Below are positions 3,487 through 26,899 of a DNA stretch of 64,000 nucleotides, one piece after another. Position numbers and translations under genes: made by a program. Origin of the DNA: Cytophagales bacterium (GTDB taxonomy: Bacteria; Bacteroidota; Bacteroidia; Cytophagales; Cyclobacteriaceae); contig JAKSDQ010000089.1 of NCBI GenBank assembly GCA_022360015.1, forward strand, positions 1-64,000. The letters run 5' to 3'. Below the pieces are notes generated by a model, which saw only the letters and a list, made by a program, of their open reading frames with translations, ran no database searches and was not told where the DNA came from. How positions within the stretch are numbered: the stretch's first letter is position 1; every line of letters begins with the position of its first letter.

Positions 3487-4986
3487 TTATTTAGCATTAG
3501 TGATTTTGAATACAAAGGCATTATAGTCTTCGAGTTCATAATCATTAGGATCGAAATCGGGCAAGGCAATAGTAAGGTCTTTGCCGGAAGTGGTGTATTC
3601 CAATGATTCCCCCGTAGCCAGCAATTCTACTTTGCTACCTTTCTTTACTTTTATGTTTTTGATTGTCAGTTTTTTACCCGGCCACTTCGGACTAATGGCA
3701 TAGACATTATTTCCTTTGGAGGTGAAGAATAGTTCTTTCACCGCTTTACCCGGCTGTTGGTCTATGGTCTGCTTGAGGATGTAATCTCCCTCTACATACG
3801 ACTGGCCTTCTTCTAATAATTCAAATTCCCGGTCGCCGGCGGACCACTGGAAGGGGCGTTTCCACTTACGGGTTCCGTATATAGCCTCTCCGTTGGTTTC
3901 CAGCCACTTACCGATTTGCAGTAGCCGCTCCTGCATGATGACGGGGATTTTTCCAGCCGCGGTAGGTCCTACGTTTATGCACAGGTTTCCTCCCTGGCTT
4001 ACAATATCGGCCAGCATGAGAATCAGCATCTGTGCAGAGTTGTAGTCTTCTATGTCCTCGTTTCGATTGTAGCCGAAGGATAGCCCCATGCCCCTGATTT
4101 CCTCCCAGGGCTTATCGAAGTTCACTTCTTCCCTGAGGTATTCTGTGGTGAAGTAACCTCCATGTTTGTGACGCTGGCCTTTAACCCACCGGTCGTTGAT
4201 AACCACATGTTCTTTTACCGGGGACTCGTTAAACAGCCAGGCTAGGAGTTCGGTGCTCTTCCAGTAGGTATCGTCTTTTTCCCATTCGCCATCGGCATAA
4301 ATGAGGTCTGGTTTATAGTTCGTCACCAAGTCCTTGAATTGGGGATGGTAATAATCGCTCACAAATTTGTCCAGGCCGGCGCGGTACCATGGGTGATACC
4401 ATTCGTAGAGGGAGTAATAAAGCCCGGCTTTCAAGCCGGCATCTTTCATGGCTTTTACATAGTCTCCCACTAAATCTTTTTTGGGCCCGGTCTCGGTGCT
4501 ACTCCACAGGTAGCCTCGCGATTCAGTGGAATGCTTGTCAGGCCATAGCGTAAAGCCGTCGTGGTGTTTGGAAGTCATGATAACGTATTTGGCACCCGAT
4601 CTTTTGAATAATTCCGCCCACTTCACCGGGTTATATAGCTCTGCTTTCCACAGCTTGGCGAAGTCAATGTAATTGAAGTCTTCTCCATAGGTCTTTTTGT
4701 GGAATTCAGGGATTTCCTGTCCGGTAAATTTTCCATTGCCGAAAATGGATTGGCTGGTAAACCACTGAAGGTACCACTCTTCGTAGGTGCCCTTTGGCGA
4801 CCAGGAGGGTACAGAGTATGGCCCCCAATGGATAAAGATGCCAAATTTGGCATCTTCAAACCATCCTGCCACCGGCCGGCTGTCCAACGATTCCCAATCG
4901 GCTGTGTATTGCTGAGCATTTACCGCGCTATTAAAAGCAGCGACAATCAGAGATAGAAAAATGATTTTACCGACTATACGCTTCAT
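3487..4986 (-). CDS. GH29 alpha-L-fucosidase, secreted
   Basis: 499 residues from the ATG at 4986, chosen because it gives a clean signal peptide (MKRIVGKIIFLSLIVAAFNS, cleavage after VNA); an earlier ATG at 5028 adds 14 non-signal residues. The body shows GH29 hallmarks: 'FGIFIHWGPYSVPSW', 'KYVIMTSKHHDGFTLWP' with the substrate-binding His pair, and 'PDLIYADGEW', whose Asp232 is the probable nucleophile by family analogy. A C-terminal beta-sandwich follows. It should hydrolyse terminal alpha-L-fucose in the periplasm or at the cell surface. It is the last gene of the PUL, 75 bp behind a GH172 gene. I cannot assign the acid/base residue or linkage specificity by eye. Confidence 0.93.
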   Translation of the reverse strand: MKRIVGKIIFLSLIVAAFNSAVNAQQYTADWESLDSRPVAGWFEDAKFGIFIHWGPYSVPSWSPKGTYEEWYLQWFTSQSIFGNGKFTGQEIPEFHKKTYGEDFNYIDFAKLWKAELYNPVKWAELFKRSGAKYVIMTSKHHDGFTLWPDKHSTESRGYLWSSTETGPKKDLVGDYVKAMKDAGLKAGLYYSLYEWYHPWYRAGLDKFVSDYYHPQFKDLVTNYKPDLIYADGEWEKDDTYWKSTELLAWLFNESPVKEHVVINDRWVKGQRHKHGGYFTTEYLREEVNFDKPWEEIRGMGLSFGYNRNEDIEDYNSAQMLILMLADIVSQGGNLCINVGPTAAGKIPVIMQERLLQIGKWLETNGEAIYGTRKWKRPFQWSAGDREFELLEEGQSYVEGDYILKQTIDQQPGKAVKELFFTSKGNNVYAISPKWPGKKLTIKNIKVKKGSKVELLATGESLEYTTSGKDLTIALPDFDPNDYELEDYNAFVFKITNAK

Positions 4987-5061
4987 ATTTAAAATGTGTT
5001 TATTTGGGCGCAAAATTTTTAAATACACCCGGACCGGGGACCGGGCTTTCCAAAATTATTT

Positions 5062-6351
5062 TTACATTTCTCCAAGCCTTGTGTATACCTTCTCTACAAT
5101 GTCTTTCATTCTGATACCCACAGCGGGTAGTACCGGAAGATTAGAAGAGGGTTTATCCAAATAGAAGTAGGCGGTGGCAGAGACGTCGTCGTCACGATAG
5201 AAGTTGGTAGAAACACCACCCGGAAATTCTTCGTCAGTCACTTTGGGTGGGTTTTCCATGTCAAGGTAGCGCTTGGCAGCATCGTATCCGTCATTTTCTA
5301 CATACGACCATACAGGGGTTATGTCAGCACCTTCTTTATTCATTCTGATAATATTTCCTTTCTGTGAATTGCCTATTTGCTGGATAGTGACTTGGCAATC
5401 CCGGTGAAAATAAACGGGATCGTAGGTGTGGAAACGATAGAACGTGTAGAGGTCATGTTCTTTGTTCGACACGGTACTTCCCTGAATTTTATTAATAAAT
5501 TCTCCTTGTCCCCAGCCCGTCCCGATATAATCTTCCGTACCGGTGCCTACCAGGGTAGGAAATGTGTGGTCTCCATCGAGGTAGATCTTTACTTCCCCCT
5601 CACCAAACCACGTACCACGGTATTTTTCATTTCCGATCACGCCAATGTTGGTTCCCAGATAGCGTCCCCTTCCTTGCACTTTTGGCAGAATAGTATAATC
5701 TATCCCTTTTGTAGTAGCCGTATCCCGGTTCCAAAAAGTGTGGAAATACATGATATCATCTTCCAGTTGGGGTACTTTTACAAGGTTGATCTTGTAGTAG
5801 AACATCAAAAATTTTTCGGATTCATTGACAATCTCAACTTTTCCGGATTTGCGGAAAGGCATAGGCACAGAGCAATTGAAAGAGCGACCTTCGGGCATGG
5901 AAAAAAATACGTTTTCAAAAGGGCGCATCAATCCCAGACCAATACCGAAAAAGTCTGTAAACGGTGCGGATACAGCGGGTTTGGCTTCACCATCCCAGTA
6001 CATATGGATACTAACTTTTCTGCGGTTTTCCTGTGTCCACCCAAAAGAATTGGCTATCCAGATTTTAGTAATGACGCCTGGCCCTTGCTGATCGAAGATC
6101 ACCAGGGTGTCCCCGGGGCCAATCATACTGAAGGCATCTCCTTTAGCTCCTTTGTTTGTCATTCCGCCTCGGCCCTTTTCTCCTTTCTTATTTTCTGAGC
6201 TTATCCAGCGGGTCTCAACGCCCGGAGGAGCGGCTTTATAGTATTTGTTGATATCATAAAGGGAAAAATTCTTATCTTCGGAAACGGGCGCGGTGCAACT
6301 TGTGGTGGTCATTAATCCCACCATGCTTAAAATGGTTATAAAATTCTTCAT
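5062..6351 (-). CDS. GH172 (DUF2961) glycoside hydrolase, lipoprotein
   Basis: 429 residues from the ATG at 6351, which gives a lipoprotein signal ending in TTTSC; a further ATG at 6411 would add 20 residues. The sequence has the DUF2961/GH172 jelly-roll pattern: 'GPGVITKIWIA' near the N-terminus, 'VPMPFRKSGKVEI', then WFGEGEVKIYLDGD followed closely by GTGTEDY. In characterised GH172 enzymes the two catalytic glutamates lie in these last two motifs, and both are present. Known GH172 activities act on alpha-D-fructofuranosides and alpha-D-arabinofuranosides, often through trimeric assemblies. It is probably anchored to the outer or inner membrane facing the periplasm. It lies between the larger GH172 and GH29 genes in the PUL. 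Confidence 0.88.
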   Translation of the reverse strand: MKNFITILSMVGLMTTTSCTAPVSEDKNFSLYDINKYYKAAPPGVETRWISSENKKGEKGRGGMTNKGAKGDAFSMIGPGDTLVIFDQQGPGVITKIWIANSFGWTQENRRKVSIHMYWDGEAKPAVSAPFTDFFGIGLGLMRPFENVFFSMPEGRSFNCSVPMPFRKSGKVEIVNESEKFLMFYYKINLVKVPQLEDDIMYFHTFWNRDTATTKGIDYTILPKVQGRGRYLGTNIGVIGNEKYRGTWFGEGEVKIYLDGDHTFPTLVGTGTEDYIGTGWGQGEFINKIQGSTVSNKEHDLYTFYRFHTYDPVYFHRDCQVTIQQIGNSQKGNIIRMNKEGADITPVWSYVENDGYDAAKRYLDMENPPKVTDEEFPGGVSTNFYRDDDVSATAYFYLDKPSSNLPVLPAVGIRMKDIVEKVYTRLGEM

Positions 6352-6432
6352 TTTTGTTGGGTCCAATAGGGGTTTAGTGAATAGATTGAAATATATTTTC
6401 GATAATCTCATATAGCTTGGTTTTCGTATGGA

Positions 6433-8457
6433 TTATTCACTTATTTTCAAATAGTCAAATCCTAACTGATCGGCCTTTGGGTTTTGCTTATTGGCGCCTT
6501 TGGCGATCATTAAGACTGTGTTATTTCCTTTTTTGATAAAACCATTATCGACAGTGTATTTTTTCAGATTTAGCGAATCACTATACAAGTCCATGTTTTC
6601 AAAAATGCGTTGGCCGTTTAAGTACATATCTACCGTGATATACTCCGGAGCATGAGTGAAAACGGCATCCAGTTTTCCTTTTCTATCTTTTTCAGAATAA
6701 AAAACAGTCTTCAGTGTATCTTCTTTTTTAATCCCTTTCCAATACAGGTGGTTCCGGGCACTCCACTCATACGAAAGGAAGGCCTGGGTAAGCGTTTCTC
6801 CTCCGGTTACTTCTTTTACTTCAAGGCTCTCTCCTTCAAACTTATCCGAGTGTTTTACCGAAAGCTGCACTGCTTCCATGTCACCCATTACTTCGGCTTT
6901 GGCTTCTTTTGTGCCATACCAAAAGGTAGTAGGTGCATAATCCATCCGGGTATTTCCCCAATGCCATAGTTCTATGTCGAATTTGAGCGACCTTTCGAAA
7001 GGAATTACGTCCAATATCCTCCAGCGGCTATTGACACTTATACCCGGACTTCTATTACCATCTCCAATAGGCTGGGCAATGAAAGGAGAATAAAAGTCAA
7101 CCACACTGCACCATGCATACCCGTAGTAGTCTTCGGTACCGGTACCAAAGTGAGAAGGGAATTTTTCTTCGTCGACGTAAATTTTCTCATCACCTTCACC
7201 CCACCATTCGTAACTGTTGTTGAAAAGCGTAAGGACATCGCCTACATACTTCCCTTTTCCGGAAATAGAAACGTAATTGACATCTTTCTTTTCTGCTGTT
7301 TCAATATCGGCATATAGCCGCCAATTGGCATGAAAGTACAGACTTTGTTCATCCCACTGCCATGGGGTACTGTGCACGTCAAATTTTATCAGATCCACCG
7401 CCTCTTTTCCGTAATTATGCAAGGTCAATTTTGCCGATCTCCGGAAAGGCATAGGGAAATAGGTGGTCATTTCGCCATCGGTGTTCACAGTACTGTACCT
7501 GGATTGGTAGGGGGATATTTTATAGCCGGTACCAAAAAAGTCACCGAGGGGAGCCCAAACGGTAGGCTTTCCGTCAAATTCTATGGATATAACTGCCGAG
7601 CGTAAGGCCTGGCTAAGGTCTTCTGCCCCAATCTTTACCGAGAGCTTTTTAATGGCTTTACTGCCTTCCATACGAATAGTGGCAGCTTCTCCGGGTTTTA
7701 CTTTTTGATTGAGGCGGGGCATTTCGTCTGGCCAGTCATCGGATGGATACTGTCTTAATTGCGTGTTTGCCCGGGCAATGAGTGTCTTGTATTCTTTACT
7801 TTGCCAATCGTCCTTTTGGTAGGTTTTTACCCGTGTGCCCGCTTCGTATTTTCGATAGTTGATCTGGTAGTAAAGCACATCCTCTACTTCTTCTGTTGCT
7901 TGCTGGTAGGTTACTTTGCAATGTTTGGCAAAGGGTAAGGGAAAGTAGAGATTGTTTCCTGCGAAAATACCGCCATCTTCAAGAAATGCGGATACTCTTT
8001 TGGAAAGAGGTTCGCCTACATGTTCGTTGTATGCAATCAAGTCATCGATGCGGCCCTCGATCTGCGGGGTTTCGGAATGATCGAAATAAAACCGCAATGT
8101 GCCTTGGGAGAAATAATGTGCATGCCATGTACTCCAAAAACGTACGATGACGCCAGGCCCTTCCACATCCATAAGCACCCGTTCTTTTCGACCATCGATG
8201 GTTTCTACGCCTATATATTGTTTGGCATCAGCATTGTCAAACCATCCGGGCCGGTCAGGGGAAACGGCCTTCCTGGAATAACTACTAGCCTGCAGGGTTT
8301 TAAAGGGATGTTTGTCTGCTTTTGCCAAGGCATCCCTATCCAGCATTTCCTGTAGCAAGGTTTCGGTGGTTATGTCATATTGCGCCGGGATACATGATAC
8401 ATTCAACGTTAGTATGAATAACGCTATACGTTTAAAACCAGTTTTTTTCAAGCTCAT
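6433..8457 (-). CDS. Large GH172 (DUF2961) glycoside hydrolase
   Basis: 674 residues from the ATG at 8457; a GTG four codons upstream is less likely. The N-terminus (MSLKKTGFKRIALFILTLNV, then SCIPA) is a signal peptide, possibly lipoprotein. Two jelly-roll segments are visible: 'GPGVIVRFWSTW' with 'YFPLPFAKHCKV' in the first half, and 'APLGDFFGTGY' with 'YFPMPFRRSAKL' in the second. The catalytic region carries WWGEGDEKIYVD and GTGTEDYYG, with the key glutamates 21 residues apart as in characterised GH172 enzymes. About 100 extra residues at the C-terminus probably form an added beta-sandwich. The same PUL carries a shorter GH172, so the two probably cleave different linkages or positions of one glycan. 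Confidence 0.87.
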   Translation of the reverse strand: MSLKKTGFKRIALFILTLNVSCIPAQYDITTETLLQEMLDRDALAKADKHPFKTLQASSYSRKAVSPDRPGWFDNADAKQYIGVETIDGRKERVLMDVEGPGVIVRFWSTWHAHYFSQGTLRFYFDHSETPQIEGRIDDLIAYNEHVGEPLSKRVSAFLEDGGIFAGNNLYFPLPFAKHCKVTYQQATEEVEDVLYYQINYRKYEAGTRVKTYQKDDWQSKEYKTLIARANTQLRQYPSDDWPDEMPRLNQKVKPGEAATIRMEGSKAIKKLSVKIGAEDLSQALRSAVISIEFDGKPTVWAPLGDFFGTGYKISPYQSRYSTVNTDGEMTTYFPMPFRRSAKLTLHNYGKEAVDLIKFDVHSTPWQWDEQSLYFHANWRLYADIETAEKKDVNYVSISGKGKYVGDVLTLFNNSYEWWGEGDEKIYVDEEKFPSHFGTGTEDYYGYAWCSVVDFYSPFIAQPIGDGNRSPGISVNSRWRILDVIPFERSLKFDIELWHWGNTRMDYAPTTFWYGTKEAKAEVMGDMEAVQLSVKHSDKFEGESLEVKEVTGGETLTQAFLSYEWSARNHLYWKGIKKEDTLKTVFYSEKDRKGKLDAVFTHAPEYITVDMYLNGQRIFENMDLYSDSLNLKKYTVDNGFIKKGNNTVLMIAKGANKQNPKADQLGFDYLKISE

Positions 8458-8771
8458 TGTATTTTTCACGTTTATTCAGTTAATAAGTAACCGATAATTA
8501 GCCCAACGCATAGAAAGGCTTTAGTAGTTCGGCCTCTGGTTTATGGGTACCATCATTGTATGAACAATCCAAAATTATTGACAGTAATAAAACTCACCAT
8601 TTAATAAGCATAATTATCGTTGTAAAGCTCAACACATACACATTTTTGTTCAATGTTCAATTTGGCTGATTTTGTGTATATTTTATCTTCACATTCAATC
8701 AATCTGTCCTTGATATCCCTAGATGAGTTAAAAATTAGTCGAAAAATCATCAATTAAAAGAAACAAAAAAA
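8458..8771. other. Intergenic region between the sensor gene and the GH172 genes
   Basis: No coding potential. On the minus strand a TAATTTTG octamer (8577-8570) matches the Bacteroidota -7 consensus TAnnTTTG and would serve the two GH172 genes and the fucosidase. No TTG-type -33 box stands at the right spacing, so this promoter is only a weak candidate. The region is AT-rich. Confidence 0.25.
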
Positions 8772-11700
8772 TCAAATGGATCTCATTGAAATAAGCACAT
8801 CTCTTTTTTCATTGCTGTTTTCTTTTTGAAATACACTTGGCGTTACTCCATATTGTTTTTTAAAACAAACACCAAAATAACTGAGGTCATTAAAACCTGC
8901 TTGATACGCTACTTCTGATATGTGAATACTTTTGTCTTCCAGGAGCTGTGCTGCTTTTCTTAAACGGATGTTTCTGATAAATTCATTGGGAGTCAGATTC
9001 AACAGGCCCTTGATTTTTCTATACAACATGGAATTGCTCATTCCCAATTCATCACAGAGCACTTTTACAGTAAGTTCCGGGTCACTCAAATGATTTTCCA
9101 CAATGGCTTTAGCTTTTGACAATACCTTTTCATCAAAGGAGGTAGTAACGATTTTATTTGGCTCGAGAAAAGCCCCGGTATTAAATTTCTTATGAATTTC
9201 GTTTCTTTTTTTCAATAAAGACTCTATACGAGAGAATAATACCTGCATATCCATAGGTTTGGTTAAGTAGGAATCTACCCCAGCTTCATATCCAATGGCC
9301 CGGCTATCATCACTGGCGTTGACTGTGACGATGATGAAAGGAATATGACTGGTATTCAAATCGTTTTTAACAGCCTTGCAGAGCTGATAGCCATCCATTC
9401 CGGGAATCATTAAATCGGAAACAATTAAATCCACCTCATTTTCATTGGCTAAATCAAAAGCTTCTTTCCCATTTACCGCAGTAATGATATGGTAATACTT
9501 TTCCAATTGAAGGGCCACAAGCGTCAGAAAATCTTCATTATCGTCAACAATGAGAATGATTTTCTTTTGACCCCGCGTGATCTTTGAGGTATTTTTTATT
9601 GGCATGTGGTCTTCTGAACCTCGGTAAGATAGGGTATCACCCGGAATCATTGGATTCGTTTCAGACAGGGTATTGCCACGGTGAGAAGATAGTGAGATGG
9701 GTAATTGTAAGGTAAAAACAGAGCCTCTGTCTGGCTCACTCTCTACCTTGATCGAACCTCCTTGTAAATTTACCATGTTTTTAGTCAGCGCCAATCCTAT
9801 TCCAATACCCGTATCATTCCCACCCGATGTTCTATAGAACCGGTGGAATATATGCTTAAGATGCTCTTTGGGAATACCGCGGCCATTATCTTTGACTTTG
9901 ATCATCATCCATCTTTCATCCGCTATCCATAGACTTTCAACTTCTAATGCAATAACTCCCCCTTTTTTGGTATATTTAAATGCATTTGATAAAAGGTTAT
10001 TCAGGCAAATGTCAAGTTTTTCTTTGTCCACAAATCCATCCCCGATTCCCGAAGTTTTCAATTGGAAAGCGATGTTTTTTTCCTCGGAAATCACCAGGTA
10101 GTTTTCATAACTTTCCCGGATAATATCATCCAGGTTATGCCTGCTCAGCAACAACTTCAAATTTCCTGCTTCAGCTTTTCTAAATTGCAGCATCTGTTTG
10201 ATCTGATGATGGAGCTTATCTACATTCCGCCGGAACATACCGGGAAGTGTTTCACATTCCGGTATATCATATTTGGATAATTTTTCGGATAATATCAACA
10301 GTATGGAAAGGGGGGTTAGCAATTCATGCGACAGGTTGGTGAAAAACTGTAATTTAAACTGGTTTAGTTTTTCTGATTTGGTTCTTTCCAAATGCTCTAT
10401 CTTAAGCTTTTGCCTGGCTTTCATTTGATTCCTGTACAGGATAAAAACCATTAAGATAACCCCGAGTATGGTCGTGATATACAAGGTATAAGCCCACCAG
10501 GTAAAATAAGGCGCAGTGGTCACCGTGATGGGTAACACGGCCATTTCACTATTCCATCTCCCCGTGGCGTTGGTACCCATCACCTTGAAGGTATATTGAC
10601 CCGGTTCCAGATTCATATAGGTTGCGGTCCTTAAATCTGCGGAGACAATCTGCCAGCTATCCTCCAGACCTTCTAATTGATAAGCATAACGGGTTTCAGA
10701 GGAAGCCCTCATATCGAGCGCGGAAAAAGATATGGAGAACAGGTTGTCATCATATTTGATCACAAACGGATTATTTTGGTGAAAAGATTGTGCATTAAAT
10801 ATCTTTTTGCCGGTTTTTAAATGGGTAAAAGCAATTTTTGGAATAAATACGTCTTCTTTTTCCAAAGATGCGGGGTTAAAAAGGTTGAACCCATTATGAC
10901 CACCGACATATATATGGCCATTTTTATCGCGCACCATGGCTCCTTTGATAAATACATTGCCCTGCAAGCCATTGGCGGATGTGTATACGTCTATATTGTA
11001 ATCTTCCTCCCCGGCACTCAGGCGTAATAATCCCTGATTGGAAGTTGCCCAAATATGGCCGCCATGGTCTTCGGTGATAGCATATATGACTTGGTCATCC
11101 ATTCTGTCGATGGCTAAGGGAGCATGATATTTACCTGTAGATTCATGCCATATTTTCAGGCCTTTATTCAGGGAACCAATCCATAACCGGTCCTTACTAT
11201 CAAAGAATAAACAGTTAATAGAAATGGGGGGCTGTCCCGTATTTTTTATAAGATACTCAAATCTTACGGAATCTTTTCCCTTCCTTACCGGGATAGCTGA
11301 TTTTATCAGTTGTCCTTCAAATGTAGATACATATAGGTAACCCTGCCTGTCAAAAGCAATGGCGGAAATGGTTTGGCCTTCCAGTGAAACCGATGACCGG
11401 ATCTCAGGATTATAGTATTTAACAGTATGGTTATTAAATCCACCGTGTTTGTGCAAAGTAACCCTGAATAAACCATTTTCCGTGACTGCCCATAGATAAT
11501 TCGCGTCTTTTTTCACGGAAGTTATCTTCCTGGCATTTAGTTTTTTATTCCCTTTTCCCCGCAACAACCGGATGTATTTACCTTTTTCCGGATCAAACTT
11601 AATCAAACCTTTGTATCTTGTACCCATCCATAAGTTGGAATCCTGGTCCCAGGTAAAGTTATTTACTGTATTAATGTCCAGTTTTTCTAATGTCCTGTAT

Positions 11701-13186: not shown

Positions 13187-13233
13187 TCTTATCCGGCCAG
13201 GGTCAAAGAAAAAAATCCCCTGAACCATCAGCC

Positions 13234-15977: not shown

Positions 15978-16943
15978 TTATTTAGACCATTCTTCGAATC
16001 TCAGATCCAGTTCCGGTGACTGGCGTTGAATTAAGGTGTCTGTTACTTTGTACCTGGTGCCTCCGTTTACATATTCATAATTTAAATAAAAAGTGTTTTC
16101 CCCGGCGTTAAATACGCCGCTTCCTTCAATTTCAGCCACATCATTTCCGGGTACACTTTCCACAGAAACCGTATTGTCACCATTTACCCATAGTTTCAGG
16201 TGGTAAGTGGCATTGTTTGAAGAGGTTAATGTTCCTATACCTGAAGTTGTGACGGAATCGACACCCAATGTGGTAAATGTCCAGGTTTGATTCTTTACCA
16301 GATCCCTGTTGGTATATGCTTCTTCAGCTACTACCTGATCATTGATATCAAGTTCCTGTTCCACTCCTTTGTGGTAGTAAATACCATGCAGGGGGCTGAT
16401 GTATTTTACGACCAAAACAGTATAATTTTTAGCAGCTATCTGCTCATTACCACCTTGATCGAAACGTCCGGATAGAATGGAATCGGCCGAGGTTTCTTTA
16501 ATCACCAAGGGTAGCGCATAGGTATTGGCTGTAGCCAGTGCATCGCTGGTAAAGGCATCTTTATCCAGTGTGACGGTGATATCTCCGATGAACTTCCCCG
16601 GAGGTATCACCATAGTGGAAGTATTACTCAGCGAATAATAGTCGGCTGGTAAGGGTGTAAAAGTCTGCCCCCCTACAACACTTTCCTCCTGCAATAAAAG
16701 CGGATCGATTTCAAAGGTGGCAAATTCTTCGGCTTTATTACTGCGCTTACCCGCTAAAGCCACCCCTACTTTGAAAGACATCTCATCATCTGCTACGATG
16801 GTTCTCAGGGGTCTTTGAGTAGCAAAGTAGACCGCTGTAAATTCGTGATCATTCACAAATTCGTCGTACCCTTCGCAGGCTGCGAAAGCCACTGAAAGCA
16901 GGCAGATTAAGGTATATATTTTCATGGTTTTCATTTCATTCAT
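15978..16943 (-). CDS. Surface glycan-binding lipoprotein (DUF1735-type, SusE-position)
   Basis: 321 residues. ATGs occur at 16943, 16934 and 16925, all leading into the lipoprotein signal LLSVAFAAC (lipid-modified Cys23 counting from the first). The 'TAVYFATQRPLRTIVADDE' segment followed by 'FKVGVALAGKR' and 'DITVTLDKDAF' is typical of DUF1735 (BT_3987-like) N-terminal Ig-like domains. The C-terminal half resembles a DUF4361-type or lipocalin-like beta domain. Genes of this type sit after susD and encode outer-leaflet lipoproteins that hold the polysaccharide at the cell surface. It starts 11 bp behind susD2 and is surely co-transcribed. No catalytic motif is present. Confidence 0.8.
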   Translation of the reverse strand: MNEMKTMKIYTLICLLSVAFAACEGYDEFVNDHEFTAVYFATQRPLRTIVADDEMSFKVGVALAGKRSNKAEEFATFEIDPLLLQEESVVGGQTFTPLPADYYSLSNTSTMVIPPGKFIGDITVTLDKDAFTSDALATANTYALPLVIKETSADSILSGRFDQGGNEQIAAKNYTVLVVKYISPLHGIYYHKGVEQELDINDQVVAEEAYTNRDLVKNQTWTFTTLGVDSVTTSGIGTLTSSNNATYHLKLWVNGDNTVSVESVPGNDVAEIEGSGVFNAGENTFYLNYEYVNGGTRYKVTDTLIQRQSPELDLRFEEWSK

Positions 16944-16954
16944 CTTTTTAAATG

Positions 16955-18718
16955 TTACCAGCCCAGATTATTTTCCATATTGGGGCTTTTCATCAATTCA
17001 TCATAGGGAAGGGGCAGGTAATAATCACGGATGTTATCAAAATTCCGTTCCTCGACATCCATGGAAGAATACTGAAAATTATCATCGATGTCTTTCGCTA
17101 TTTCCACTCCTCTTACGGTTTCATTGAGCGGAAGGACCCATCTCCTCATGTCGAAAAACCGGTGATTTTCAAAAGCGAGTTCAAGCCGTCTTTCATTTTG
17201 TATCAATATCCTGAAAGCATCTTTACCCTGTGCTGCTACTTCATCCACATAGGTATTGTCATTGATGCCGGCGGCATTTCGGATAGATTTGATAATATCG
17301 GCCGCCGACTGGCCGATGTCCGGGCCCACACCCTCGGGTCCGTACGCCTCATTGGCAGCTTCTGCCAGGTTTAGATAGCTTTCCGTTTTCCTGAAAAGCA
17401 CGTGATAGTGATGGTCATTACCAGGGTTTTCAGGATTGAGGAGCCCACTACGCACTGAAAGCCACTTTCTCAGGTAATAGCCGGTACGGGTGGCCTCCTG
17501 GTGACCTGTTCGGGAGTCTTTACCTCCGGTAAATGTTTCGATAGCTTTCCCATTCAGGGTGCTCCCATTGTAAAAAACCGTGAGATCCAGCCTGCTATCA
17601 CGCCCCTGGTAAGGGTTTTCAGGATCATAACCTGACCTGACATCGGAAATAGGAAATCCATTCTGCATGGGAAAGGCATCCACAAGGTTTTGCGAGGGCC
17701 CTGTAAAAGCATCACCATATTCAAGAGGAGGATAATGCCGCAGTTCCATGCCGCGGCTATTAAAGTACTTCCTCCAGATAAATTCATCAGGGGTATTGTT
17801 ACTGTTAAAATGGTTGGTGCTCAGGCTTTGAAAGGCTCCGATATTATCTACAGCTTCCTGGGCCAATGTTGCTGCCCTTTCCCATTTTTCCCGGTACTTT
17901 ACAGCATCATTGACGAAAAACTGCCCCATACCGGTAATCTGGGTAACCTCGTCGGGTTGGTAAGCCGGACTGGCGGCGTATAATGACACACGGGATTTTA
18001 AGGCGTAAGCCGCCTGCTGACTTGCCCTGCCTATCTGGACATTGCCCACCACAAGGTCGGCTCCTTTATATGTCAGCGGGAGGTAGTTGATCGCAGTATC
18101 GCAATCTGCCAGAATCTGCAGCGCACATGTTTCATAGGTATCTCTCCAGACTGCTTCCAGATCCCTGGCTTCTTCTTCACCGGGTGTTTTGGTGATGATG
18201 GGGTATCCCAGTGCAGAACCCGAATTGGTTTTGCCACCAAATTCATGCAGTAATTTAAAGCCCCACCAGGCGCGTAAAAAATAAGCTTCCCCTTTGAGCC
18301 TGACCTTGGTTAAAGAATCTGTTTCAGGCTTTTCCAGGTTGTAATTTACATGGTCGCCCAGGCCATGGTCCAAAAACAGATGAATATTTCTGAATTGGCT
18401 ATAAGCCACATCCCAATTTCCTATGGGATTTGACCAGGGACTGATGCCACCGGTAGCCGCATCATAGATGGAAGTATTAAAAGCATTCGTAACCGCGTTG
18501 TCTGTAGCTACATCAAGAAAATTGTTGTTGTAGCTATCGAACTGACCGGGAATGGCAGCATAAGCATTCATCAAGATGCCCTCGATTCTCTCCGGAAGGG
18601 TGTAAGCGAATTCTTCAGTGTAAGTAACATCGATCCGGGGGTCTAACTGATCCTCACATGACCAAAGTGAAATCCCCAGCAATAAAGTAAAGTATTTCAA
18701 ACATGTCTTTTTCATCAT
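16955..18718 (-). CDS. SusD-like glycan-binding lipoprotein (pair 2)
   Basis: 587 residues. The N-terminus (MMKKTCLKYFTLLLGISLWS then CEDQ) is a lipoprotein signal with lipid-modified Cys21. The fold is recognised from the SusD pattern: 'RGMELRHYPP', 'GDAFTGPSQNLVDAFPMQNG', 'NPYQGRDSRLDLTVFYNG', 'ESYLNLAEAANEAYGP' and 'FRILIQNERRLELAFENHRF' followed by FDMRRW near the C-terminus. SusD proteins cap the SusC barrel on the outer face and bind the incoming oligosaccharide. The gene is 10 bp downstream of its susC partner. Binding residues cannot be read off by eye. Confidence 0.95.
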   Translation of the reverse strand: MMKKTCLKYFTLLLGISLWSCEDQLDPRIDVTYTEEFAYTLPERIEGILMNAYAAIPGQFDSYNNNFLDVATDNAVTNAFNTSIYDAATGGISPWSNPIGNWDVAYSQFRNIHLFLDHGLGDHVNYNLEKPETDSLTKVRLKGEAYFLRAWWGFKLLHEFGGKTNSGSALGYPIITKTPGEEEARDLEAVWRDTYETCALQILADCDTAINYLPLTYKGADLVVGNVQIGRASQQAAYALKSRVSLYAASPAYQPDEVTQITGMGQFFVNDAVKYREKWERAATLAQEAVDNIGAFQSLSTNHFNSNNTPDEFIWRKYFNSRGMELRHYPPLEYGDAFTGPSQNLVDAFPMQNGFPISDVRSGYDPENPYQGRDSRLDLTVFYNGSTLNGKAIETFTGGKDSRTGHQEATRTGYYLRKWLSVRSGLLNPENPGNDHHYHVLFRKTESYLNLAEAANEAYGPEGVGPDIGQSAADIIKSIRNAAGINDNTYVDEVAAQGKDAFRILIQNERRLELAFENHRFFDMRRWVLPLNETVRGVEIAKDIDDNFQYSSMDVEERNFDNIRDYYLPLPYDELMKSPNMENNLGW

Positions 18719-18728
18719 CTTTAAAAGG

Positions 18729-21700
18729 TTAAAAGCCTACCGAAACACCACCGGTAATGGTTCTGAAAACCGGGTAGTTCAACACCCCTGCATTGGGCAC
18801 TTCGGGATCCAGATCATCGAATTTCGACCATACGAAAAGGTTTGTTCCGCGGACAAAAATTCTGATGGATTTAGCGATCCACGCGCCATGGGTAAGTGTA
18901 TAACTCAACGCTACATTTTTCAATCTGAAAAATGAAGCATCCTCCAGCCAAAAGGTGGAATTTCTGAAATTATTGCGTCCGTCTGTCGTAGTTAATGCAG
19001 GGTATTTACCTTCCGGGTTGTTTACCGGGTGGTAACGGTTGTTGGCCAGCACTGAATATTTACCCTCGCCGGTATTCCAGTAATAATTGTTGTTTTGATA
19101 CCTGTCGACCCCCAGTTCTGAAGTTCCTAATACAAAAAGACCAAATCGTTTATAGCTCAGATTTAACTGTACCCCTAATGTAGTTCTGGGAAAGCTGTTA
19201 CCAATGCTCTTTTGGTCCCGCGGGTCTACGAGGCCATCATCATTCAGATCTTCGTAGGCAATGTAACCCGGGCCATACTTTCCGAAGAGTTGTCTCGGAG
19301 CATTTAAAACCTGGTCTGCACTTCTAAACAATCCTGCATCGACCAAACCAAACATTTCGTCGGAGGACTTGCCGGTTCGTCGTAAGGCTTCGTCCTCATG
19401 GGGGATCTCGTCTGTTACTTCTACTTTGTTTTTTGAATAGATAAAGTTAACACCTAACTGGTAGTGAAAATCGCCGGAAGTATTCGACCAGGTAATAGTA
19501 CCTTCAAGTCCCTGGTTGGATGTTTTCCCGAGGTTTTCAGGCCTGATCAGTCCGCCGGCAAGTGTGGAATAAGTATTACCGGGAAAGACGATGATATCTG
19601 ACCGGTATTCATTGAAGTAGTTTAGCTCAAATTGCAACTGATTCCCAAATACCAACCCTTCCAATCCTACATTCACCTCTCTCGATTGCTCCCAACCCAG
19701 GTCGGGGTTACCAAAAATGACAAATGCTGTCCTGGGCTGTCCTGTTTGATTTCGTACCCCGAACCGGACAGTACCCTGATTGACAAAACGATTTTCATAA
19801 AGATAATAGCCGATGTCTCCTTCATGCCCCAGGATACCATAGCTGGCTTTCAATTTGAGAAATGTCAGATTTTTACTACCGGCCAAAAAACCTTCTTCCG
19901 AAAGCACCCAGGCCGCTCCCACCGCCGGAAAAAATTGATACCGGTTATCTTTTTCAAACCGGTTACTACCCATGTAGGCCATGGTTCCCTCCAAATAGAT
20001 CTTATCACGCAGACCATACGTCAGGCGAAGTACAGTATTGGTATTTTCAATATCCTGCAAGCGTGTATCATTTTCATTCCTGAAATAAAAATGGGAAAGA
20101 TCGGCTGTCAGCACATGGTCACCGAATGCTTTTGAGTAGGATAGATTGGATATCCATCCCGTATTCCGGCTGATATTATCCTGTTGGCGAAATTGCTGAT
20201 TCTGAATTACACGCTTTCGCAAATTAAAATATACAGTGGTGTCCGCTCCCGTATTTGTGGTTGTATGAAAAGGGGCGTAGGTAATGGGGGTCAGCAACTG
20301 CCCGTTCTGGAGATATTGGTAGTTGTCGAAAGTGAAGGTACTGCGCACTGACAATCCTTGCACAAACGCTCCTAAATCCAAATCCAAACCCAGGGCTGTC
20401 TGACCGAAAAAGTAGTTGTGTTCCCTAAATCCTCCATAACGCAAATCTCCGTACAGATTATTGGTATGACGGAAGCTGCCGCCCAATGGAGGCACTACCT
20501 CCTCACCGACTTCCGTAGCGATTCCCTCAAAATCCGGATCGTTAATGAGCAATGGGTATTCATTGGGACGGTGGGTTCTTATTGCTGTGAAAACCTGGTC
20601 CTGGTTCAGTTTTCCCCATTGCCGGGTTTCAATGATGGCATTCCCTTGTACAATCGCTTTCAATGAGGGGCTAATTCCGATATTCAGGTTTCCGCGTATG
20701 TTCACCCGGTCTTCCACGGGTGTGCTTATATTTTCCACGCCTTCTATTCCTGTGTAGCCTAACATAAGCGCATATTGTGTTTCACTTGTACCCCCTGAGT
20801 ATTCGAGTGTAGCCTTTCTAAAAGGCGTAGAAGGTCGCAGAAAATAATCATTGTAATCCACATCGGGATAACGCAGGTCATTTACACCGGAACTTTGCCT
20901 GTAACCGGCCAGGTCCTGCTCGGAATAAAAGCGTGCCAAACCATCATTTTCCCTGGCTTCATTATACAAGGCAGCATAATCGGCACTGTTCAGATAATCT
21001 GGCATTCTTGTCGACATACTGGTTCCGTACTGAGCTGTTGCCCTGATGATTTTCGTATTGGGTTTTCCTCTTTTGGTAGTGATCATTAAGACGCCATTGG
21101 CCGCACGGGGTCCATAAAGGATCTTGGCCGTGGCATCTTTTAACACCGCTACCGTTTCCACTTCTTCCGGGTTGATAAAACCGATGGGGCGTTCGATTCC
21201 ATCCACTACAGTAATGATTTGATCATTATCACCTCTTGACAATCCCCTGAGAAACAATGAAGCGACATTGTTTCCCAATCCACTGGTATTGTTGCGTACG
21301 ATAAGTCCCATGATTCTGCCCTGCAGTGTATTTTGAAATACTGCCTCAGGATAAGTAGCCAGTTCTTCACCGGTAACCGAAGTTATGGCGCCCACCAAAC
21401 TTCGTTGCCGGGTCGACAATCCAGCGGGCAGTTGCACCTCATCCTCGTGCGTGGCAAAGATTAATGCTTTGCTCAGGGATAAGGTTTCCGGAATGCGCTC
21501 TTTTTTTAAATCGATGACTAGTTTTTTATAACCTTTTGCTTCAATAATCAAAGTCGAATTGGCTTTTGCTTCAATTGAGAATTCCCCCTCACTGTTGGTA
21601 AGTGTCTGTATAACACCTTCCCAGGAAGTGATCGACACATTGCGGATGGGGTTACCGGCTTCGTCGACAACCTTTGCTTTTACATGGATCACTTCCACCT

Positions 21701-21806
21701 TTGCATTCTTTTTCTGACCATAGGTGGTTCCGGTCCGGAACATAGAGATTGTGGCTACCGCCAACAAACCAAAAATTATCTTTTTTATATAGGATATAGC
21801 CTTCAT
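18729..21806 (-). CDS. SusC-like TonB-dependent outer-membrane transporter (pair 2)
   Basis: 1025 residues from the ATG at 21806, which overlaps the TAA of susD1 by one base (TAATG), so translation is coupled; a TTG at 21812 is not needed. A signal peptide is followed by a CarboxypepD-type domain (AKVVDEAGNPIRNVSITSWE), a plug domain with 'PIGFINPEEVETVAVLKDAT' and 'NGVLMITTKRGK', and a long beta-barrel ending in VSVGF. Unusually, the region before the plug reads 'LPAGLSTRQRSLVGAIT', without the EVVVVGYG segment normally found in SusC proteins and present in pair 1. It should import oligosaccharides together with SusD2. Confidence 0.94.
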   Translation of the reverse strand: MKAISYIKKIIFGLLAVATISMFRTGTTYGQKKNAKVEVIHVKAKVVDEAGNPIRNVSITSWEGVIQTLTNSEGEFSIEAKANSTLIIEAKGYKKLVIDLKKERIPETLSLSKALIFATHEDEVQLPAGLSTRQRSLVGAITSVTGEELATYPEAVFQNTLQGRIMGLIVRNNTSGLGNNVASLFLRGLSRGDNDQIITVVDGIERPIGFINPEEVETVAVLKDATAKILYGPRAANGVLMITTKRGKPNTKIIRATAQYGTSMSTRMPDYLNSADYAALYNEARENDGLARFYSEQDLAGYRQSSGVNDLRYPDVDYNDYFLRPSTPFRKATLEYSGGTSETQYALMLGYTGIEGVENISTPVEDRVNIRGNLNIGISPSLKAIVQGNAIIETRQWGKLNQDQVFTAIRTHRPNEYPLLINDPDFEGIATEVGEEVVPPLGGSFRHTNNLYGDLRYGGFREHNYFFGQTALGLDLDLGAFVQGLSVRSTFTFDNYQYLQNGQLLTPITYAPFHTTTNTGADTTVYFNLRKRVIQNQQFRQQDNISRNTGWISNLSYSKAFGDHVLTADLSHFYFRNENDTRLQDIENTNTVLRLTYGLRDKIYLEGTMAYMGSNRFEKDNRYQFFPAVGAAWVLSEEGFLAGSKNLTFLKLKASYGILGHEGDIGYYLYENRFVNQGTVRFGVRNQTGQPRTAFVIFGNPDLGWEQSREVNVGLEGLVFGNQLQFELNYFNEYRSDIIVFPGNTYSTLAGGLIRPENLGKTSNQGLEGTITWSNTSGDFHYQLGVNFIYSKNKVEVTDEIPHEDEALRRTGKSSDEMFGLVDAGLFRSADQVLNAPRQLFGKYGPGYIAYEDLNDDGLVDPRDQKSIGNSFPRTTLGVQLNLSYKRFGLFVLGTSELGVDRYQNNNYYWNTGEGKYSVLANNRYHPVNNPEGKYPALTTTDGRNNFRNSTFWLEDASFFRLKNVALSYTLTHGAWIAKSIRIFVRGTNLFVWSKFDDLDPEVPNAGVLNYPVFRTITGGVSVGF

Positions 21807-23644
21807 TACCAACCGGGATTTTGTGCGAAATTAAGTAAGTTCTGTACATCATCTGCGGGTACAGGGTACCAATGGTGCCTGCGATCAAATACCCTGATTT
21901 CCGTTGACAGCGTGACCACCTCGTAAGTAAAATTCAGGGAACTCTTATCAGCCACTCCCCTGTGACCTGCCGGGGGAATCGCCCGGATTCCCCGGATGGG
22001 TTGGTTCAACACTTCTTCGGCGATCATCCATCTCCTGAGATCATGCCACCGGTGATTTTCGAACATCAGTTCAACAGCGCGCTCATTTCTAATGTGTTCA
22101 CGAAACGCTTCCTTGCTTGCAGTAAACTCAGAAAGCACATCCGGCATACCGACCCTGTTCCTGATAACATTAATGGCTTCCACCGCAGTCATTGATAATC
22201 CGTCTCCGGTACCATACGGACCATATGCTTCATTCATAGCTTCTGCATAATCCAGGTATATCTGGGCAACTCTTATGTAAATAGTATTAAGCCTGAAAGC
22301 ACCATACAATCGCCGGCCGGCGTCGGCTCCTTCCCACCAGAATTTTTTACATACATAACCGGTTGCTTCCCGGTTTCTGGTGTTATTATTGTTCACGACG
22401 TTGTTCCAATCCCTGCCTCCTACATACATTTCCATATAGATAACCGCACCGCCCTGGCCGGTGCTCCATGGTTGCCCCGGTACAATCACATTGTTATAAA
22501 ACCTCGGATCCCTGTTCTCATAAGGATTCTGTGGATCATACCCTGATTGCGGGTGGTCAATGGGATATGCCAGCCCGTTATTGATCACTTCAAATTTATC
22601 TACCATGTTTTGTGTAGGACCGGTAAATGATGCCGCATCGTTACCGGTGCCTGCGGCATATCGCTGCGGAATATAATTTACCCGGAGGCCACGTGTCTGA
22701 TCCCTGGAACCTGCATCCATATTATACCATAATGATTCATCACTGGCAAACACAAATTCGTGATAAAAGATGTTTTGGTATTCCGAGCCATCCATTAACC
22801 TGAAGGGTGCACCACCTGCATTACCCGCAATATAATCGAGCACCTCCTGTGCATATCGGGCCGCTACTTTGCATCTTTCGATATCATAATCCCTGACCTC
22901 TACCGAACTTAGGCCATTCTGCATCAGGGGACTGGCATCATATAAAGCCGCCATTGACTTCACTGCCAGGGCCGCACCTTTGGTAGCCCTGCCGTATTCC
23001 AGATCGTTCCATACGTGAGGCAGGTATTTAAAGGCGGAGTCCATATTAGCCACTACAAATTCATGAGACACGTGATAAGGTAATCTTTCAAAGTCCAGAT
23101 TTTCATCAGAGCTGTAGGTCCGATCAAATATCGGCATTCCTCCCATCCGCATAATGATTTGAAAGTAGTACCACCCCCGGAAAAAATAAGCTTGTCCCAA
23201 CAATTGTTCCTGTTGCTCTTTGGATAAAAATTCGGTTTCAGCCACCCTTTCCAGGATATTGTTGGTAATTCTTAAAGCATAAAATGCGTTATCCGGAACC
23301 GATCCGTTAAAACCTCCGGTTCTGTTGCTATCCCATCCGATTTCGCCAATGCCGGGTCTGTCGAACCATGCACCTGTGTTAATAATGGTATTGAGTGGTC
23401 CGATAAAGAGTGTTCCTGCTTCGTCGGATAACGCATTCACATTGGTACGTGACAAATTTTGTGAGTTCCATGAATGTATGTCCAATAAGGCCCTGTAGCA
23501 ATTATCGAGATAACCACGGATCGATTCAAAATTTGAAAAAACTTCTTCTTCTGTGATTCCCTGCTCCGGAGTTTTATCCAGGTAATCCTCACAACTGGTC
23601 ATCACCAGCCAAAGCATGATGAGTAATACTTGATTGATTTTCAT
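21806..23644 (-). CDS. SusD-like glycan-binding lipoprotein (pair 1)
   Basis: 612 residues with a lipoprotein signal (MKINQVLLIMLWLVMTSCED, Cys18). SusD features include 'YLDNCYRALLDIHSWN', 'GQAYFFRGWYYFQII', 'DAASFTGPTQNMVDKFEVIN', 'NPYENRDPRFYNNVIVPG', 'YLDYAEAMNEAYGP' and 'HIRNERAVELMFENHRWHDL' followed by RRWM. It starts 12 bp after susC1 and its stop overlaps the start of susC2. The four genes susC1-susD1-susC2-susD2 thus form one tightly packed transcription unit. The two SusD proteins differ clearly in sequence, which suggests binding of different oligosaccharides or different ends of the same glycan. Confidence 0.95.
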   Translation of the reverse strand: MKINQVLLIMLWLVMTSCEDYLDKTPEQGITEEEVFSNFESIRGYLDNCYRALLDIHSWNSQNLSRTNVNALSDEAGTLFIGPLNTIINTGAWFDRPGIGEIGWDSNRTGGFNGSVPDNAFYALRITNNILERVAETEFLSKEQQEQLLGQAYFFRGWYYFQIIMRMGGMPIFDRTYSSDENLDFERLPYHVSHEFVVANMDSAFKYLPHVWNDLEYGRATKGAALAVKSMAALYDASPLMQNGLSSVEVRDYDIERCKVAARYAQEVLDYIAGNAGGAPFRLMDGSEYQNIFYHEFVFASDESLWYNMDAGSRDQTRGLRVNYIPQRYAAGTGNDAASFTGPTQNMVDKFEVINNGLAYPIDHPQSGYDPQNPYENRDPRFYNNVIVPGQPWSTGQGGAVIYMEMYVGGRDWNNVVNNNNTRNREATGYVCKKFWWEGADAGRRLYGAFRLNTIYIRVAQIYLDYAEAMNEAYGPYGTGDGLSMTAVEAINVIRNRVGMPDVLSEFTASKEAFREHIRNERAVELMFENHRWHDLRRWMIAEEVLNQPIRGIRAIPPAGHRGVADKSSLNFTYEVVTLSTEIRVFDRRHHWYPVPADDVQNLLNFAQNPGW

Positions 23645-23656
23645 AATGGATACTGC

Positions 23657-26600
23657 TTAAAATGACATCCTGAATCCTGCATTATATCTTCTGACCACCG
23701 GATAAACGCTGGTGCCGTTGGTCTCAGGATCAATTCTGGGGTCTAGTTTGGTGAAGGTCAGCAGATTGTTCCCGTTCACATATAGCTGGAGTTTCTTGAT
23801 ACCCAGGTTCTCGAGCCTGGCCAGTTTGATCCGGTAACTCAATTCTGCATTCTTGAGCCTTATATAAGTGCCGTCTACATAAGAATAGGTACTATTCGTA
23901 AAGTTGTGGGCCGTATTGGCGATATGCAATGACGGCTTCTTTGCTCCTTCCGGATTATTGACGGTCCATCTACTGGTAACATCCGTCTGGGCCATGATAA
24001 AATTGTTTGGAAAGTCCCAAAGGATCAGGTCGGGAATTTCAAAGGATACATCCGTAACACCATAAAGCAGGGCATTAAAATCAAGATTTTTCCAACTAAA
24101 GCCCACATTCAGTCCGCAGGTAGTTTGTGGACGAAGCGCATGTTCCATGGGCACCGCATCAAGGTTGTCCGTAATTCCGTCTGCATTGTAATCCACATAA
24201 AGAAAATCTCCGGGCACCAAAGCAGCAGGTGCTATGCCCTGGTTAGGCGTGGTATAATTATAGATGTCATCCAGGGAGTTATAATATCCCCCGTTGATGT
24301 GTCTTCTTTGGTAACGCAGCGGTTTACTTTCATCCTTGAGGTAGTCCGCCTGTCGTGCAGGATCATCCGCAAAAACAATTCTGGTATCGAACCAGGAAAA
24401 ATTTCCCCTGATATAATACCGGAAGTTCGCCCCAATGCGGTCATTCCACCCCAACTCTATTTCGAAGCCTTTGTATTTTTCTTCCCTGATATTGGCTTCG
24501 GGTGAGGTGTTGCCAAACCATCGGGGTACCGATTTTCTGGTGATCAGAATACCATCTTCTTCTGTTCTAAAGAAATCTATCGATCCGGAAATTTTATCGA
24601 TTAAATCAAAGTCAATGCCCAGGTTTTGTGTGGTGCTCGTCGACCAGGTAGCATTAATATTAGCGGCTTTACCTTCATTAAACAAAGGTCCGATATTGGT
24701 TGCGCTGTTCAATCCCAATCGGATATTTCCTCCCCTGGTAAATTGCTGAAGGTAAATAAACCGCTGGTTGCCATCATCACCGGACTGGCCGTATGAATAA
24801 CGAACTTTCAAAAGATTGAGGAAACTACCGGTAAACTGTCTAACCCACTTTTCTTCCGATATCACCCAACCGGCAGATACCGAAGGAAAGTACCCATACC
24901 TTTCACCCGGGGCAAACCGCTCTGAACCGGAGGCAGCCCCATTGAATTCAAACAAATACCTGTTATCATAGGCATAGGTGACCCTGGCTACATATTCTTC
25001 CCTTAAAAAGGGGAAACTGATGTTATTTGAATTGGACCTTCTTGCGTACCTTAGCCTGTTTAACCGGTTCCAAAGTATTAATCCGGTGAATGCATGTTTG
25101 CCGAAAGTACGCTTGTACCGTGCAGATAATTCATAATACAGTCTCCGGTTGTAAGCAAAAATATTGTCATAATTAGCGATCAAAGGTCCCTCCTGGGTAA
25201 CCTCGTCTGGCCAGCGTATAGCAGATAGCAGGGGATAACCTCCTGTTTCCAAGGGGCGGGTAACGTCATAATCTCTAAAGTTCCGGATGACATTAATGTT
25301 TGCAAAGCCTCCCCCGATACCAGTCCTCAAAATAAAGGATTCATAATTGGAACCGGAAGAAAAAGAGACCAGTGCCTTTACTGACAAGCCTTTCGTGATA
25401 AAATCAAGTTTCTGTTTGAGAATGGCATCATACAGGCCTTCATAGTATTTGTATATTCTCTGACCTCCTTCGTTAAGATTCATGAACATGTTATGCTCAC
25501 CTGACTGGGAATCTCCATACGTGCCATCTTCATAACGCAGCGGAAACAGGTTCTTCGGGGCCTGAAACATCCGGTTAAAAAACTGGGGTTCACCAAAAGA
25601 GGGTCTTCCAAGGTTATCGAGTCCTTCTCCTCCCCCATCGATGCGATACCCGGGCTGGTTGCGATACCTGAAATTACCGGCAAGGTTGAGCGAAAACTCG
25701 GTGGTACCGGTGATTTTAAAATCAAGGTTAGACCGCCAGTTATACCGTTCCAGGCGAAAAGAAGGATCGAACTGATCATTTTCCTCCGTATTGTATATGT
25801 CTCCATCATTTACATATCCGAGGGAAACAAAATATTTTACAAATTTGGTTCCTCCTCTCATATTCAGGTTATATCGCTGCTGATAGCCCACCTCTGCAAT
25901 TAATTCATCCCACCATTCAACCTGGGGAAAATATTGATTATAAGGGCCTGCCCGGTCTATGTTTTCTCTCCAGGCCTGTATTTCTGCCTCCGGAATTACC
26001 TGGTCCCACAGGTTATCATTGGCAGCGGCTTCATTAAACATTTCCATGGCTGTGATGTAATCGGCATTCTCTTGGGTAATAGTAGGCCGCTTAAATCCAA
26101 AATTTACGGAAAAATTGATTGTAGGCTTCCCAATCTCACCTCTTTTCGTAGTAACCAATATAACCCCGTTGCCACCTCTCACACCATACACCGCTGTAGC
26201 AGACGCATCTTTCAAAACCGACACGGTTTGAATTTCATTAGGATCTATGTCGTTAAAATCACGCACTACGCCATCTACCAAAACCAAAGGAGCATCTTCA
26301 GCACCCCGGATAAAAATATCAGCAGCGTCAGAGCCTGGCTTCCCATTCGTATTAATGGCTGTAACACCGGGTAAAAGCCCCTGAAGAGACTCGGATATTG
26401 TATTCACAGCACCTACCCTGAGTAGATCCTCGCCTTTTGTTTGTACAATGGCCCCCACCACACTCGCCTTTTTTTGTTCGCCATATCCTACTACTACCAC
26501 CTCTCCCAGGCTGATAATGTCAGGTAATAAATTAATATCGATCACGGTGCGGCTTCCATCTACTTCGACCTCTATCGTTTCATAACCGACAAAACTGAAG

Positions 26601-26899
26601 GAGAGCGTGTCGCCCACCTGAACGCTCAGGTTATATTGTCCCCCGATATCTGTTATTGTACCGATGGTAGTGCCCTTTACCAGTATGCTTACCCCTGGAA
26701 GGGTTTCACCAAACTCATCCGTTACAACCCCATTAATCGTCACTGTTTTTAGTGTATCACCATCGTTTGAAAAACCGGACATTTCATCCGCCGGGCCATT
26801 GCTTCCGTACGCCCATCCAGGGATGACAATGAAAAACAGTAAGTTAAACAGTAAGAATTGTAGTAACTCCCACTTTCTTAATAGTAGTTTTATTTTCAT
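23657..26899 (-). CDS. SusC-like TonB-dependent outer-membrane transporter (pair 1), first gene of the PUL
   Basis: 1080 residues. A long signal peptide (ends near GWAYG) is followed by a CarboxypepD-type domain ('VVTDEFGETLPGVSILVKGT'), the canonical EVVVVGYGEQKKASVVGAI segment, a plug domain ('VLVDGVVRDFNDIDPNEIQT', 'VYGVRGGNGVILVTTKRG') and a beta-barrel with the usual terminal strand ending RMSF. It imports oligosaccharides across the outer membrane using TonB energy. As the first gene behind a 404-bp intergenic space, it is the place where the HTCS would act. No truncation is seen. Confidence 0.96.
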   Translation of the reverse strand: MKIKLLLRKWELLQFLLFNLLFFIVIPGWAYGSNGPADEMSGFSNDGDTLKTVTINGVVTDEFGETLPGVSILVKGTTIGTITDIGGQYNLSVQVGDTLSFSFVGYETIEVEVDGSRTVIDINLLPDIISLGEVVVVGYGEQKKASVVGAIVQTKGEDLLRVGAVNTISESLQGLLPGVTAINTNGKPGSDAADIFIRGAEDAPLVLVDGVVRDFNDIDPNEIQTVSVLKDASATAVYGVRGGNGVILVTTKRGEIGKPTINFSVNFGFKRPTITQENADYITAMEMFNEAAANDNLWDQVIPEAEIQAWRENIDRAGPYNQYFPQVEWWDELIAEVGYQQRYNLNMRGGTKFVKYFVSLGYVNDGDIYNTEENDQFDPSFRLERYNWRSNLDFKITGTTEFSLNLAGNFRYRNQPGYRIDGGGEGLDNLGRPSFGEPQFFNRMFQAPKNLFPLRYEDGTYGDSQSGEHNMFMNLNEGGQRIYKYYEGLYDAILKQKLDFITKGLSVKALVSFSSGSNYESFILRTGIGGGFANINVIRNFRDYDVTRPLETGGYPLLSAIRWPDEVTQEGPLIANYDNIFAYNRRLYYELSARYKRTFGKHAFTGLILWNRLNRLRYARRSNSNNISFPFLREEYVARVTYAYDNRYLFEFNGAASGSERFAPGERYGYFPSVSAGWVISEEKWVRQFTGSFLNLLKVRYSYGQSGDDGNQRFIYLQQFTRGGNIRLGLNSATNIGPLFNEGKAANINATWSTSTTQNLGIDFDLIDKISGSIDFFRTEEDGILITRKSVPRWFGNTSPEANIREEKYKGFEIELGWNDRIGANFRYYIRGNFSWFDTRIVFADDPARQADYLKDESKPLRYQRRHINGGYYNSLDDIYNYTTPNQGIAPAALVPGDFLYVDYNADGITDNLDAVPMEHALRPQTTCGLNVGFSWKNLDFNALLYGVTDVSFEIPDLILWDFPNNFIMAQTDVTSRWTVNNPEGAKKPSLHIANTAHNFTNSTYSYVDGTYIRLKNAELSYRIKLARLENLGIKKLQLYVNGNNLLTFTKLDPRIDPETNGTSVYPVVRRYNAGFRMSF

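Follow-up and report, generated by a model that had tools for sequence, protein, structure and literature searches.

We found an intact PUL of ten genes in a Cytophagales bacterium, at positions 3487-26899 of the window, by which we mean the whole 64,000-nucleotide stretch that was analysed. This stretch makes up the first 64 kb of a contig of 149,559 bases, from a 7.3-Mb genome that is 99.9% complete. Our confidence stands somewhat above even that this PUL, under HTCS control, serves a fucosylated heteroglycan with alpha-D-arabinofuranose-like side groups, the substrate and all linkages being predicted from sequence. The gene content and intactness of the locus are near certain. The first-pass annotation had described it as intact and complete, with two SusCD pairs, a surface lipoprotein, an HTCS and four enzymes, and ten open frames with strong Pfam and NCBIfam matches bear this out.

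All ten genes lie on the minus strand. In order of transcription, they encode SusC1, a TonB-dependent importer (23657..26899; TIGR04056, 1.6e-235); SusD1 (21806..23644; Pfam SusD_RagB, 7.6e-49); SusC2, a second TonB-dependent importer (18729..21812; TIGR04056, 2.1e-185); SusD2 (16955..18718; Pfam SusD_RagB, 2.6e-44); a predicted surface glycan-binding lipoprotein with a BT_3987-like N-terminal domain (15978..16943; PF08522, 8.2e-16); an 865-aa orphan hydrolase of predicted GH-A type with C-terminal fn3 domains (13234..15831; P0001); an HTCS, a hybrid two-component regulator with a propeller sensor (8772..12920; Reg_prop, Y_Y_Y, HisKA, HATPase_c, Response_reg, and HTH_18); GH172b, with one full and one partial N-terminal DUF2961 (6433..8469; P0004, 678 aa; Pfam DUF2961, 1.1e-72 in two stretches); GH172a, a probable lipoprotein with a single DUF2961 (5062..6411; P0003; 1.9e-66); and a secreted enzyme of the GH29 alpha-L-fucosidase family (3487..5028; P0002; Alpha_L_fucos, 2.2e-112; Fucosidase_C, 1.1e-09). 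Adjacent susC-susD pairs, a surface lipoprotein, a regulator, and CAZymes on one strand make this a SusCD-type PUL. Pfam and NCBIfam profiles found no sulfatase, GH116, GH183, or GH32 among its ten proteins.

Operon-like gaps of -7 to 12 bp lie within the susCD-lipoprotein block and of 21 and 33 bp within the GH172b-GH172a-GH29 block; spacers of about 150 to 310 bp stand between the lipoprotein, the 865-aa enzyme, the HTCS, and the enzyme block. The window starts at a contig end, yet a plus-strand CoA-ligase-like gene (2064-3359) sets the left boundary of the PUL. On the right it is flanked by a plus-strand frame without a family match (27500-28699). In some PUL frames, translation probably begins a few codons downstream of the listed first start codon; for GH29, the true start is probably an ATG 15 codons inside the frame. 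Elsewhere in the window, on the plus strand, a BlaI-type repressor precedes a BlaR1-like, TonB-tailed antirepressor in which an M56 peptidase is joined to TonB_C and CarboxypepD_reg domains (33542-35418). A 336-aa protein consists of a GmrSD N-terminal domain alone (36148-37158), and a truncated-looking TonB-dependent receptor of 291 aa, with a PepSY_TM gene next to it, ends after the plug domain (53560-54435).

The two GH172 proteins have DUF2961 scores of 224 and 245 bits against a Pfam cut-off of 27. Both conserve, in the alignment used for the tree, the catalytic glutamate pair targeted by mutation in DgGH172c (PMC10115798; E233/E254, which are E232/E253 in the chain numbering of 4kq7); E271/E293 of GH172a align with it. 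The best solved relative of GH172a is the exo-alpha-D-arabinofuranosidase ExoMA1 (8.8e-36), and in the tree it clusters with ExoMA1, apart from alphaFFase1 and DgGH172c, with moderate support (89/91). GH172b falls into a separate clade with four uncharacterised proteins (from genomes G008, G254, and G166 and from contig C82; 100/100), and among solved structures alphaFFase1 is marginally its top-scoring match. It is also rare: a search of 395 genomes of the phylum at E 1e-60 found it in only two further genomes. Its build of 1.5 DUF2961 domains is the one reported for D. gadei DgGH172b, a dimer weakly active on D-arabinan substrates (PMC10115798). The GH172 pair would remove terminal alpha-D-Araf-like units. 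The GH29 enzyme scores 376 bits for Alpha_L_fucos against a cut-off of 25.2, and its nearest solved structure is human tissue alpha-L-fucosidase (2.6e-95); members of GH29 differ in specificity.

The orphan enzyme has no GH match in Pfam or NCBIfam at 0.001, where only fn3 is found, and a phmmer search of PDB sequences likewise matched mainly the fn3 part. Its AlphaFold2 model (mean pLDDT, 87.1; low stretches at 173-186 and 217-219) has a GH-A-type barrel and a beta-sandwich at about residues 24-490. We set aside Foldseek matches to the fn3 repeats and used the catalytic part. With VIA-align 2, residues 26-490 match GH51 arabinofuranosidases at Z of about 30 (2vrq, Z 29.9, rmsd 3.2 over 411 residues), with 11-14% identity, and GH79 at Z of about 28. 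Since GH79 is within 2 Z units of GH51, the fold match does not single out GH51; the model has the barrel and the beta-sandwich typical of GH51, two conserved glutamates are candidates for the catalytic pair, and a family match at the sequence level is absent. The modelled fold can thus be assigned to the GH-A type with high confidence, and the earlier guess that this enzyme is GH-A-like was right at the level of the fold. Across an alignment of 14 relatives, N171-E172-P173 and T292-E293 are invariant, and from the two conserved glutamates, E172 and E293, we propose that the enzyme is a retaining hydrolase. Relatives occur at 16 genome loci, most of them 45-53% identical; at E 1e-60, the 395 genomes of the phylum added only one further genome, so the enzyme is rare. 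In Neolewinella/Lewinella, frames of about 1320-1330 aa have a sulfatase fused to the N terminus of an orphan-type enzyme (L009, 8546-12514, where the sulfatase was checked with Pfam; L011, 7823-11818; L013, 8534-12508; L018, 8510-12508). This suggests that desulfation and the cut made by the orphan enzyme go together in these bacteria.

Related loci in other genomes bear on the substrate. The core of SusC1, SusD1, SusC2, SusD2, lipoprotein, orphan enzyme, and HTCS is kept in identical order in Echinicola pacifica (L052/L008/L053) and E. shivajiensis at 44-61% identity, with a sulfatase inserted before the orphan enzyme (SusC1, 53-55%; SusD1, 58-61%; SusC2, 54-56%; SusD2, 61%; lipoprotein, 48-51%; HTCS, 44% and at the equivalent place). 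In E. pacifica, the core is followed on the same strand by sulfatases, a GH2 LacZ-type enzyme, and two GH116 enzymes, whereas the window PUL has GH172a, GH172b, and GH29. The two GH116 enzymes match the exo-beta-D-arabinofuranosidase ExoMA2 at 6.4e-129 and 3.2e-135, versus 4e-26 and 2.6e-17 for beta-glucosidases, and they retain the His and Arg equivalent to His446 and Arg483, the D-Araf-recognising residues of GH116 (PMC10509167; PDB chain numbering is offset by 4 from that of the paper, by hand count). The synteny of the importers implies similar substrates for the two PULs, that of the window and that of Echinicola. It also suggests, together with the sizes and numbers of related families, that the source bacterium belongs to Cytophagales, probably to Cyclobacteriaceae as GTDB defines it. 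Echinicola would then remove beta-D-Araf-like groups and sulfate with GH116 and sulfatases, and the window PUL alpha-D-Araf-like groups and fucose with GH172 and GH29.

The genome G008, which belongs to the same bacterial family as the window, has the enzymes of both versions. One long locus there holds an orphan enzyme (48%), a GH172b-type protein (38%), two ExoMA2-like GH116, GH29, GH95, GH97, GH2, a GH36-like protein, two GH43/GH32-like enzymes, a GDSL esterase, many sulfatases, a SusC, and an HTCS. By gene content, then, the pairing of fucose-directed with D-arabinofuranose-like enzymes recurs in the family, and the simplest common substrate of the window, Echinicola, and G008 loci would be a fucose-bearing heteroglycan with D-Araf-like furanose groups. 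A glycan containing both fucose and a furanose had been suggested in the first-pass annotation, and the G008 locus and the D-Araf-type GH116 of the syntenic E. pacifica PUL support it. Two observations on related loci count against this reading. The core shared with Echinicola lacks GH172 and GH29 there, so the substrates need not be identical. Moreover, the GH172b relatives in G254 and G166 lie in a galactose-type PUL, beside GH2, GH43, and galactokinase- and GalT-like genes (names that rest on reading N-terminal sequences), with no fucosidase labelled. Because of these neighbours and the GH2 enzymes, the backbone is perhaps galactose-based.

On the fucosylated-heteroglycan reading, the lipoprotein and the two SusD proteins would bind the glycan on the cell surface, the GH-A-type enzyme would cut a main or inner linkage, and the oligosaccharides would be imported through SusC1 and SusC2. 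GH29 would then take off alpha-L-fucose, or its L-galactose or D-arabinopyranose analogue, and GH172a and GH172b the terminal alpha-D-Araf-like units; both steps are placed in the periplasm by prediction, as are the surface steps at the surface. The HTCS would detect a product and switch the locus on. Freed L-fucose and D-arabinose could both enter metabolism via one L-fucose isomerase, since this class of enzyme works on both sugars (PMC6894278); a search of the genome found a single such gene, on contig C155, outside the PUL.

Profile matches count 12 GH29, 6 GH116, and 31 sulfatases in the genome as a whole, numbers that make the source bacterium a generalist well equipped for such glycans. 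GH29 lies within about 20 kb of GH172 or GH116 at three of seven loci. The chance expectation is about 0.3 under uniform placement and about 1.4 among PULs only, the latter estimated roughly by hand for about 40 PULs, an assumed and not a counted number. Both families being PUL residents, this proximity could be partly chance and by itself is not decisive. A second GH172/GH29 locus lies between SusCD genes on C82, a short contig (L028 = G000:C82:5001-24000; 2762-12401). A stop splits its GH116, its GH172b-type gene contains an extra stop when read in the longer form, and a GH43-GH29 fusion is also present; the locus may be a decaying or misassembled PUL. On C275 (L027 = G000:C275:1-20000; 3166-7905), a GH172a paralogue (53%) adjoins a 1119-aa FG-GAP/ASPIC-UnbV protein and SusCD, with a second GH172 about 11 kb further on. 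C257 (L048/L049/L056 = G000:C257:8001-64000) carries three GH29, one ExoMA2-like GH116 with the same His and Arg, GH95, and several SusCD pairs. A homologue of the FG-GAP/ASPIC protein lies there between GH29 genes, so a role for this protein in a glycan system of the same kind is possible.

The enzyme set must also be weighed against other substrates. It is possible, though rather unlikely, that this is a reduced algal-type FCSP PUL acting on the same glycan family as its marine relatives, with sulfatases supplied from elsewhere in the genome and the furanose as a minor branch. Relatives of the orphan enzyme do accompany sulfatases, GH29, GH95, GH97, and GH2, as in the predicted FCSP PULs of North Sea Flavobacteriia, where GH29 occurs with susCD as it does here (PMC6298971); in Polaribacter sp. 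Hel1_85, the orphan enzyme stands amid sulfatases, GH97, GH95, and GH29/GH43-like genes, which fits the description in that paper. The 31 sulfatases and 12 GH29 of the genome point the same way. However, the window PUL has no sulfatase, GH95, or GH117, and its ten genes compare with an average of about 38 in the FCSP PULs, whose description leaves DUF2961 unmentioned (PMC6298971). Our best reading is that it is related to PULs for fucose-containing sulfated polysaccharides, yet without sulfatases. A marine heteroglycan, as first proposed, is plausible for the marine, sulfatase-rich relatives, but the window PUL has no sulfatase. A D-arabinan PUL of the D. gadei or mycobacterial type, for arabinogalactan or lipoarabinomannan and with an incidental GH29, is improbable. 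Like D. gadei PUL42, the locus is a Bacteroidota PUL with more than one GH172, one of 1.5 domains, but it lacks the DUF4185/GH183 endo-D-arabinanases, fucose isomerase, and putative GH116 of PUL42, and it differs in having the orphan GH-A-type enzyme and GH29, with no fucosidase mentioned in the text of that paper (PMC10115798). Similarly, the D-arabinan cluster of Microbacterium arabinogalactanolyticum holds ExoMA1, the nearest characterised relative of GH172a, but it is actinobacterial, with an ABC transporter, GH183, GH116, and no SusCD (PMC10509167). DUF4185/GH183 was not found in a piecewise search of the 99.9% complete genome with a profile that detects this family in 9 of 395 genomes from the Bacteroidota phylum, and the DUF4185 loci inspected from other genomes of the phylum have no adjoining GH172. 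The absence of this endo-D-arabinanase family from the PUL, and the negative search of the genome, rule against a strict D. gadei-type PUL, and the suggestion of a D-arabinan polymer in the strict sense is not supported.

The furanose itself could be another sugar. L-Fucofuranose and L-galactofuranose share their C2-C4 ring stereochemistry with D-arabinofuranose, and the whole enzyme set might serve one glycan rich in L-fucose or L-galactose, which would suit the company of GH29 and GH95 and the shared use of fucose isomerase. We give this little credence, because the characterised GH172 and GH116 relatives act on D-Araf (or D-Fruf), and we know of no L-Fucf-active member of either family. GH172 also includes alpha-D-fructofuranosidases; its founding enzyme, alphaFFase1, is of this type and has marginally the best solved-structure score for GH172b. 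Use of alpha-fructofuranosides, with the GH172 proteins as difructose dianhydride-type enzymes, nevertheless seems very improbable: the PUL has no GH32 or other fructan gene, GH29 would be a misfit, GH172a clusters with ExoMA1, and related PULs carry D-Araf-type GH116. Gene content thus rules against a fructan PUL. A fucosylated heteroglycan with D-Araf-like side groups remains the reading that we prefer.

The main known sources of D-arabinofuranose are the cell walls of mycobacteria and a few pili. Reading at the level of titles in the open-access literature revealed no polysaccharide in which fucose and D-arabinofuranose clearly occur together. The overall design of the PUL is well known, and as far as we found, its enzyme set with the orphan enzyme is not described in the open-access literature (GH172/DUF2961 with PULs or a fucosidase), in line with the first-pass annotation, which knew of no characterised PUL with this combination. 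Across environmental and marine Bacteroidota, D-Araf-type exo-enzymes recur with fucosidases and the orphan enzyme in alternative versions, with GH172 in the window, GH116 in Echinicola, and both in G008. More tentatively, and with confidence short of even, we suggest that the orphan enzyme may found an unrecognised clan GH-A-type family, widespread in marine Bacteroidota, that cuts the backbone of a glycan bearing fucose and D-arabinofuranose, and that GH172 and GH116 D-arabinofuranosidases may serve environmental heteroglycans, beyond mycobacterial walls. For the discovery of a new activity, the orphan enzyme offers a well-defined target. If true, the recurrence would indicate that there is a common glycan, carrying D-Araf-like groups, so far unlinked to its degraders.
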